Shown one piece after another: positions 62,353 through 64,000 of a stretch of 64,000 nucleotides of DNA. The translations under genes and the position numbers were made by a program. Under the pieces are notes generated by a model. It did no database searches. It saw nothing but the letters and a program-made list of their open reading frames with translations, and had not been told where the DNA came from. Source of the stretch: an uncultured Veillonellaceae bacterium (GTDB lineage Bacteria; Bacillota; Negativicutes; Veillonellales; Dialisteraceae); NCBI GenBank assembly GCA_949286115.1, contig CASEBK010000019.1:1-64000 (forward strand). The letters run 5' to 3'. Each line of letters starts with the position of its first letter. Position 1 is the first letter of the stretch.

Positions 62353-62381
62353 TTGACGTCCCCTCTGACGCATGGTATAGT
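62353..62381 (+). promoter_or_regulatory. Promoter of the T-box-like leader
   Basis: TTGACG (62353-62358) and TATAGT (62376-62381) are exactly 17 bases apart; transcription should start near 62388, at the first bases of the leader. Confidence 0.75.
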
Positions 62382-62387
62382 GAGTAA

Positions 62388-62646
62388 AAATTCTACAGAC
62401 GTGCTGAGAAAGAATAGAGTACTCATTCCGAAGCCGCCGCAGAGAGTCCCGCCAGGTGAGAAGGGATGCGGCTGGAGTGACGAAGTGCATTCCGGAGCAT
62501 GGCAGGCTGAACGTAAGTAGGCCTTCCCGGCGCCGCCCGATACGCGGTGAGTCACAGACTCGCAGAGGCCGGCCGCGGCGACGCGGCGGCGAAATTGGGT
62601 GAGAATCACGGAACTCCTGTCCCTTTATGGACGGGAGTTTTTTTTG
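62388..62646 (+). ncRNA. T-box-like leader (tRNA-sensing riboswitch)
   Basis: Stem I landmarks of T-box RNAs are visible: base pairs GTGCT (62401) with AGCAT (62496), GAAT with ATTC, a loop with GAA then GTGCA (candidate codon TGC, Cys, at 62486-62488), the AGAGA bulge at 62441 and apical loop GGTGAGA at 62455, and the later GAAC...AGTAGG element at 62509-62521. At the 3' end GGG (62597) pairs with CCC (62621), and a strong terminator (62613-62638) with seven T follows. The seven-base bulge that normally reads UGGNACC is UGAGAAU here. It precedes an amino-acid symporter gene. The overall assignment is by motif order and has not been tested by alignment. Confidence 0.72.
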
Positions 62647-62785
62647 TTGCTGGCATGCCAGCACGTCCGGTATTGCGGCATGACCGCAGAAGAAAGGGGG
62701 AACCATATGCACAGCGCATCCATCGGCGGCACGGGCCGCCCTGCTCGGGAGGATCGGCGATGTTGCCGGGAAAGCGCAGCACCTA

Positions 62786-62815
62786 TTCCCATTTCTTCTC
62801 GATATATGATATAAT
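62786..62815 (+). promoter_or_regulatory. Possible second promoter before the symporter gene
   Basis: TATAAT at 62810-62815 with TTCCCA 18 bases upstream could start transcription downstream of the T-box terminator, bypassing it. Confidence 0.4.
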
Positions 62816-62890
62816 ATCATCACAGATTGAAGTATATTTCTTCTTCCATTTCTCCAAATTAATGTATGCTGAAAGAAAAGAGGTATATCC

Positions 62891-64000
62891 ATGAATCCTA
62901 CGCAAGATCAGAACAATGTGCGCGAGACCGCGCAGGAAGCCCTGCGGCAGAACAGGCCGAAGAATCAGGGCCGTCAGTTTGCCCTGTGGTTCGGGGCACT
63001 CATCCTGGGGGGCATCCTCGGGTGGCTGGGCATTCAGCCGCTTAATGAGCTCTTCAATTTCATCGCCACCGTATTCACGCGGCTCTTCCAGTTCATCGCC
63101 ATCCCGACGATCTTCCTGGCCGTCATCACGACGCTCGCCGAGCTGGGCGGCAACAAGGAAACGGGGCGCATCTTCATGCACGCCGTCACCTACACGCTCC
63201 TCACCACCATCTGCGCCGCTGCCATCGGCCTGGGGCTCTATCTCTACGTCGCGCCGGGCAATCTGCCCATCGAGCTTCTGAACGAAGGCCAGTCCGCCGT
63301 GCCGATGCAGAATTTCAAATCTCTCTCCTACTACGACCACATCCTCTCGGTCATCCCGAATAACGTCCTCCTGCCCTTCACCACGGGCAACGTGCTCTCC
63401 GTCATGATCATCGCCGCGGCGACGGGCCTCGCACTGGCCTTCATGCCCCGTACGGAGAACCGGGAGCAGCTCATGAAAGTCATCCAGGGGCTGCAGGAGC
63501 TCGCCTTCACCCTCATCCGGGCGCTCCTGGCCGTCCTGCCCGTAGGCATCATCGCCTTCGCGGGCCAGCTCTCCGCCCAGATCGAAGCGGGCGTCATCGT
63601 GGGCGCCCTCGGAAAATACACCCTCGTCGTCCTCGGCGGCAACGCTATCCAGATCTTCCTCATCCTCCCGCTCATCCTCGTGCTCCGCGGCCTCAACCCG
63701 CTCACCGTCTTCCGCAAGATGGCCCCGGCTCTCGCGGTCGCCCTCTTCACGAAGAGCTCCGCGGGGACGCTCCCGGTGACGCTCGCCTGCTCTGAGCAGA
63801 ATCTCAAGGTGAATCCGAAAGTCTCCCGGTTCGTCCTCCCCATCTGCACCACCATCAACATGAACGGCTGCGCCGCCTTCATCCTCGTGACCTCCCTCTT
63901 CGTCATGCAGAACGCGGGCATGGAGCTCACCATGGGCACCATGATCACCTGGCTCTTCATCGCCGTGCTCGCCGCCATCGGCAACGCCGGCGTCCCCATG
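62891..64000 (+). CDS. Dicarboxylate/amino acid:cation symporter (DAACS), 3'-truncated
   Basis: The first 370 codons of a membrane transporter of the glutamate/serine/cystine symporter family (GltP, SstT, TcyP relatives). After a hydrophilic start, seven to eight membrane segments are visible, then the conserved serine-rich loop ALFTKSSAGTLPVT near residue 288 and the NMNGCAAF motif near 322, which bind substrate and sodium. The coding sequence continues past the window. GAGGT precedes ATG 62891. Substrate cannot be fixed; the T-box-like leader upstream with a possible Cys codon would suit a cystine or serine carrier. Confidence 0.9.
   Translation, partial: MNPTQDQNNVRETAQEALRQNRPKNQGRQFALWFGALILGGILGWLGIQPLNELFNFIATVFTRLFQFIAIPTIFLAVITTLAELGGNKETGRIFMHAVTYTLLTTICAAAIGLGLYLYVAPGNLPIELLNEGQSAVPMQNFKSLSYYDHILSVIPNNVLLPFTTGNVLSVMIIAAATGLALAFMPRTENREQLMKVIQGLQELAFTLIRALLAVLPVGIIAFAGQLSAQIEAGVIVGALGKYTLVVLGGNAIQIFLILPLILVLRGLNPLTVFRKMAPALAVALFTKSSAGTLPVTLACSEQNLKVNPKVSRFVLPICTTINMNGCAAFILVTSLFVMQNAGMELTMGTMITWLFIAVLAAIGNAGVPM

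Follow-up and report, generated by a model that had tools for sequence, protein, structure and literature searches.

The UGG/UGGN sequence which pairs with the tRNA acceptor end is normally invariant in T-box switches. This tetranucleotide, UGGN, is extracted by TBDB for its entries (PMC7778990), and it has been reported that tRNA binding stabilises helix A1 of the antiterminator (PMC7583486). Symporter-type transporters under the control of a Cys T-box have precedents, among them cysP2 of C. perfringens (PMC2940859). The locus described here resembles this class I transcriptional T-box (RF00230) of the Cys type in its promoter, stem I, UGC specifier, antiterminator, terminator and symporter-type cyst(e)ine transporter target, but it differs in having an acceptor bulge of 8 nt in which UGG is interrupted, and a second promoter located after the terminator. 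The window is the whole stretch of 64,000 nucleotides which was analysed (contig CASEBK010000019.1, positions 1 to 64,000, forward strand), and it belongs to the genome of an uncultured Veillonellaceae bacterium, here called G000.

Layout of the leader and its gene

Judged by its sequence, the leader is a transcriptional T-box riboswitch of the Cys type, in which every tested feature fits except the bulge. The covariance model RF00230 matched the + strand at 62397-62627 over all 219 of its positions (1-219), with 68.7 bits and an E-value of 9.7e-15, and the expected landmarks were found. This agrees with the earlier note, which had proposed a T-box from the stem I landmarks and the antiterminator/terminator pair, and which had regarded a missing covariance match as an argument to the contrary. 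The score lies below the Rfam gathering score of 93, and a search at the gathering threshold misses the leader; 14 of the 20 T-boxes of the source genome are likewise under that score. The AGUA-type, AG and GNUG motifs of stem I and the specifier codon are all present, and the features are arranged as follows.

62353-62381, + strand: leader promoter, TTGACG, 17-nt spacer, TATAGT (both hexamer regions recognisable in the congener G002)
62397-62499, + strand: stem I (Rfam alignment, invariant columns of the leader alignments)
62416-62421, 62441-62446 and 62455-62459, + strand: stem I landmarks AGAGTA, AGAGAG and distal loop GGUGA
62486-62488, + strand: specifier UGC (Cys) within GAAG-UGC-AUUC (sequence, leader alignments, tRNA-Cys(GCA))
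62500-62528, + strand: stem II hairpin with GAA and AGUA, the latter at 62516-62519 (Rfam and leader alignments)
62526-62543, + strand: stem IIA/B region with CCCGAUAC at 62536-62543 (Rfam and leader alignments)
62564-62594, + strand: stem III, capped by a GCGA tetraloop and flanked by the purine stretches AGAGG and GAAA (covariation)
62597-62599, + strand: 5' strand of helix A1, GGG, partner CCC at 62621-62623 (helix fitting, covariation)
62600-62607, + strand: variant 8-nt acceptor bulge UGAGAAUC (Rfam alignment, helix fitting, related leaders)
62602, + strand: extra A, splitting the UGGA acceptor complement (Rfam and related-leader alignments)
62608-62623, + strand: helix A2 (ACGG 62608-62611 with CUGU 62617-62620) and 3' strand of A1, CCC 62621-62623 (helix fitting, covariation)
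62610-62646, + strand: intrinsic terminator, at 62610-62641, and U run, mutually exclusive with the antiterminator (-19.2 kcal/mol)
62786-62815, + strand: second promoter, TTCCCA, 18 nt, TATAAT, extended -10 (-10 region conserved in the congeners G001 and G002)
62891-64000, + strand: SDF-family symporter gene, 443-aa open frame extending beyond the window (PF00375, E 7e-77)

Stem III covaries at seven of its eight pairs, and 98% of its cells are paired; compensatory changes are also seen in A1 and A2. The alignment comprises 15 related Cys leaders, a sample for which shuffles serve as a guide only. A GNGA tetraloop caps stem III in all 15. The specifier UGC designates Cys, not Ser or Val; it is invariant in the aligned related leaders, including all six with an interrupted UGG, and the selection of tRNA-Cys by stem I through this codon is supported.

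PF00375 is the sodium:dicarboxylate symporter family, and its match downstream bears out the amino-acid transporter that had been suggested as the target. Since orthologues of the symporter in several relatives also lie behind Cys T-boxes, its substrate is probably cyst(e)ine. The second promoter sits downstream of the terminator and upstream of the symporter gene, and each of the three species of the genus, including the congener G001, from which the leader has been lost, has TATGATATAAT between terminator and gene or ahead of the gene. In this genus, the conserved second promoter would partly bypass the switch. A perfect palindrome, ATGATATAATATCAT (62806-62820), covers its -10 box, is identical in G001 and has one change in G002; it is a possible operator. 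Furthermore, an RBS-like AGAAAGGGGG lies behind the terminator (window 62690-62815), followed by an ATG at 62708 and 35 codons; a similar RBS-like site is kept in G002, but the reading frame there is unrelated.

Conservation of the interrupted UGG

Fitting of helices A1 and A2 leaves eight bases between them, namely UGAGAAUC. Rfam's own alignment treats one A of the bulge as an insertion, and alignment with related Cys leaders carrying UGGAAUC places a single extra A at 62602, with no substitution. The bulge thus reads as the canonical UGGAAUC interrupted after UG by A62602. A 7-nt bulge with an uninterrupted UGGN beside A1 is absent from the leader; UGGG is present at 62596-62599. The anomaly noticed in the earlier note is therefore real, but its form is not the substituted 7-nt UGAGAAU described there, as both helix fitting and the alignments give 8 nt and a one-base insertion.

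Bulges of the form UG(A/U)GAAUC occur in six full leaders, from five species and three genera of the source organism's family. The same UGAGAAUC is carried by the symporter leaders of G000, its congener G002, G003 and G006 (a different genus), the last being the cultured Allisonella histaminiformans DSM 15230, in which a second leader with UGAGAAUC precedes a small ORF; the bulge of the G009 symporter leader is UGUGAAUC. TTGGGTG-N-GAATCACG is invariant in the six leaders save that N is A or U, and the leader alignment shows that the landmarks of stem I and IIA/B are kept in them. In G002 the antiterminator is identical to that of the window and the gene order is the same. G000 and G002 agree at 34 of 34 positions of 62592-62625, but only at 66 of 130 (51%) past the terminator; the third codon positions of the symporter gene are 73% identical. 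The bulge is accordingly described, on these alignments, as a conserved, lineage-specific exception.

A sequencing or assembly error is ruled out by the occurrence of the same bulge in G002, in G003, where it lies on a single contig, and in Allisonella DSM 15230, and its recurrence in genomes independent of one another rules out a chance origin. The local sequence error that had been envisaged as an explanation is thereby refuted, relatives carrying UGAG as well (G002, G003, G006), and the UGAG bulge is conserved in the alignment of related leaders. In a tree of the Cys leaders, a single origin of the insertion could not be told from several.

Proposed pairing with tRNA-Cys and competing readings

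The tRNA-Cys(GCA) of the source genome ends in GCCGCC-U73-CCA, so UGGA is the expected acceptor complement. The UG and GA which complement UCCA are both kept, with one base, A62602, skipped between them; for an isolated UCCA duplex, the inserted base is computed to cost about 3.8 kcal/mol (from -3.5 to +0.3). An altered acceptor end fitting UGAG is ruled out, since tRNA-Cys ends in UCCA. Nor does a second tRNA-Cys explain the bulge: G003 and G006 have one, yet with the same UCCA end, and extra partial tRNA-Cys matches in G000 and G002 are tRNA-Gln. These second tRNA-Cys(GCA) genes, beside a normal copy in each genome (L070:1603-1677 in G003, L072:1612-1686 in G006), have C instead of U at position 33, an altered T arm and the UCCA end, and could encode a specialised tRNA.

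The explanation that we favour, and hold to be reasonably probable, is that of a Cys-specific transcriptional T-box in a lineage-specific variant, which still captures the uncharged UCCA end with A62602 extruded, while the second promoter supplies basal expression. Stem I would select tRNA-Cys through the specifier UGC, and the discriminator would pair with the uncharged end through U62600-A76, G62601-C75, G62603-C74 and A62604-U73, A62602 being extruded between the two halves. By analogy with the family, acceptor capture would stabilise A1/A2, so that the terminator does not form, and scarcity of charged tRNA-Cys would lead to read-through into the symporter gene. The extra base would weaken the acceptor pairing and raise the induction threshold, more uncharged tRNA being needed; acceptor sensing is probably less tight as a result. 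In the window's genus, the second promoter below the terminator would provide basal expression, as its sequence suggests. Evidence counted for this explanation comprises the T-box match, the invariant UGC, the complementarity of UG and GA to UCCA, the retention of the bulge, the covarying helices and the placement of the G003 gene. Counted against it are the cost of about 3.8 kcal/mol, the loss of the leader in G001, the second promoter and a stem-I-less element in G002.

The same observations bear on the suggestion of a defective sensor, in which a leader deaf to tRNA would act as a constitutive attenuator and the symporter would be expressed from the second promoter. The conservation of that promoter in all three congeners and the absence of the leader from G001 agree with such a decay, as do the weakened acceptor pairing predicted for the insertion and the G002 ABC-operon element, which has the same bulge without stem I. 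Decay does not sit well, however, with a UG(A/U)GAAUC bulge retained in six leaders of three genera, where stem I and specifier are intact and the discriminator helices covary, with the survival of the four tRNA-complementary bases, or with an antiterminator identical between G000 and G002 next to a flank of 51% identity. Moreover, in G003 the symporter gene begins directly behind the terminator of the interrupted-UGG leader, leaving no room for a second promoter, so that some read-through must be allowed there. Simple decay is consequently judged unlikely, although the suggestion is partly borne out by the conserved second promoter of this genus and the leader loss in G001.

Pairing in a shifted register with the UGGG at 62596-62599, to which attention had been drawn earlier (U-A76, G-C75, G-C74 and a G-U73 wobble), would draw on a sequence present in all six interrupted leaders, and its isolated duplex, at -2.6 kcal/mol, is better than the split pairing. 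The sequence is there, but its use as acceptor partner would use up the A1 strand, the very helix that tRNA binding should stabilise (PMC7583486); A1 requires the GGG, and the G009 leader ahead of a substrate-binding protein gene (SBP) has a compensatory A-U at this place, which makes such a register highly improbable. We find it hardly credible that the discriminator has been re-purposed for something other than the 3' end of uncharged tRNA-Cys: the broken UGG and the stem-I-less derivative with the same bulge ahead of an amino-acid ABC operon in G002 could be read in this way, but no base complementary to UCCA has been lost, the six full leaders retain an intact stem I and specifier, and the target genes are in keeping with cysteine supply, with no other ligand indicated. 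Also rejected was the idea that the extra A reinforces an OFF-state hairpin, GUGA-GAA-UCAC: this hairpin and the canonical form are separated by no more than about 0.6 kcal/mol, and its fourth pair is missing in the UGUG leader.

Most likely, then, sensing of uncharged tRNA-Cys persists in the interrupted-UGG leader, one base being extruded from the pairing. We regard as evenly balanced the broader proposal that a naturally selected discriminator reads the tRNA 3' end by a split heteroduplex (UG and GA around a flipped-out base), that aminoacylation sensing can do without a 7-nt bulge and without an uninterrupted UGGN, and that the added base adjusts the threshold at which genes for cysteine uptake are induced. 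A conserved exception of this kind is a natural experiment on the requirements of aminoacylation sensing, and sister leaders of the family with a 7-nt bulge allow a direct comparison with the interrupted form. Tools which extract a four-base UGGN would misread the interrupted leaders.

Distribution of bulge forms and related elements

Twelve genomes of the source organism's family yielded 269 T-box matches, about 159 of which were read, three duplicate and two cut entries being set aside by hand; UGG is unbroken in all of them save the six interrupted leaders. Other departures in length leave UGG intact. An 8-nt UGGUAAUC occurs in the symporter leaders of G008 and G010 (L262, L177) and in one leader of G009; the former two share gene and specifier with the window, but their extra base is found one position later. 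A 6-nt bulge, UGGAAC, is found in some Cys leaders of the same family; apparent cases are L202, L221, L233 and L253, which come from other family genomes. Within this family, Cys transport leaders seem to have an unusually unconstrained bulge. The Cys T-box of the symporter orthologue in G011 (L051) has the same gene, specifier and UGGAAUC-type background, with a 7-nt, uninterrupted UGGAAUC, and the cysS-type T-box of the source genome (L012, assigned by eye from the first residues) shares the specifier UGC but has an intact UGG (UGGAAUA).

Outside the family, no interrupted-UGG T-box was found in the class (380 genomes), in a phylum sample (398) or in GTDB pattern scans, the patterns of which require particular flanks and could let other interrupted forms escape; the leftover matches resemble coding or 16S rRNA sequence, as judged by eye. 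An interrupted UGG was not found described in the literature searched, with subscription papers largely outside it.

The stem-I-less derivative with the UGAGAAUC bulge is L264 (G002:C2:235100-235700, about 225-360). Besides antiterminator and terminator sequence it retains parts resembling IIA/B and stem III; it has a promoter-like TTGCCG-17-TACAGT just upstream and precedes genes for an ABC ATPase, an SBP_bac_3 protein and two permeases. A similar binding protein is encoded in G009, where its gene follows a full leader whose bulge is canonical. Cys T-boxes also precede a conserved ORF of about 36-42 aa in G006 (L082, L228) and in G008 and G010 (L024, L025, L035); its product ends near GIS.PAFHQF and has no Pfam match.
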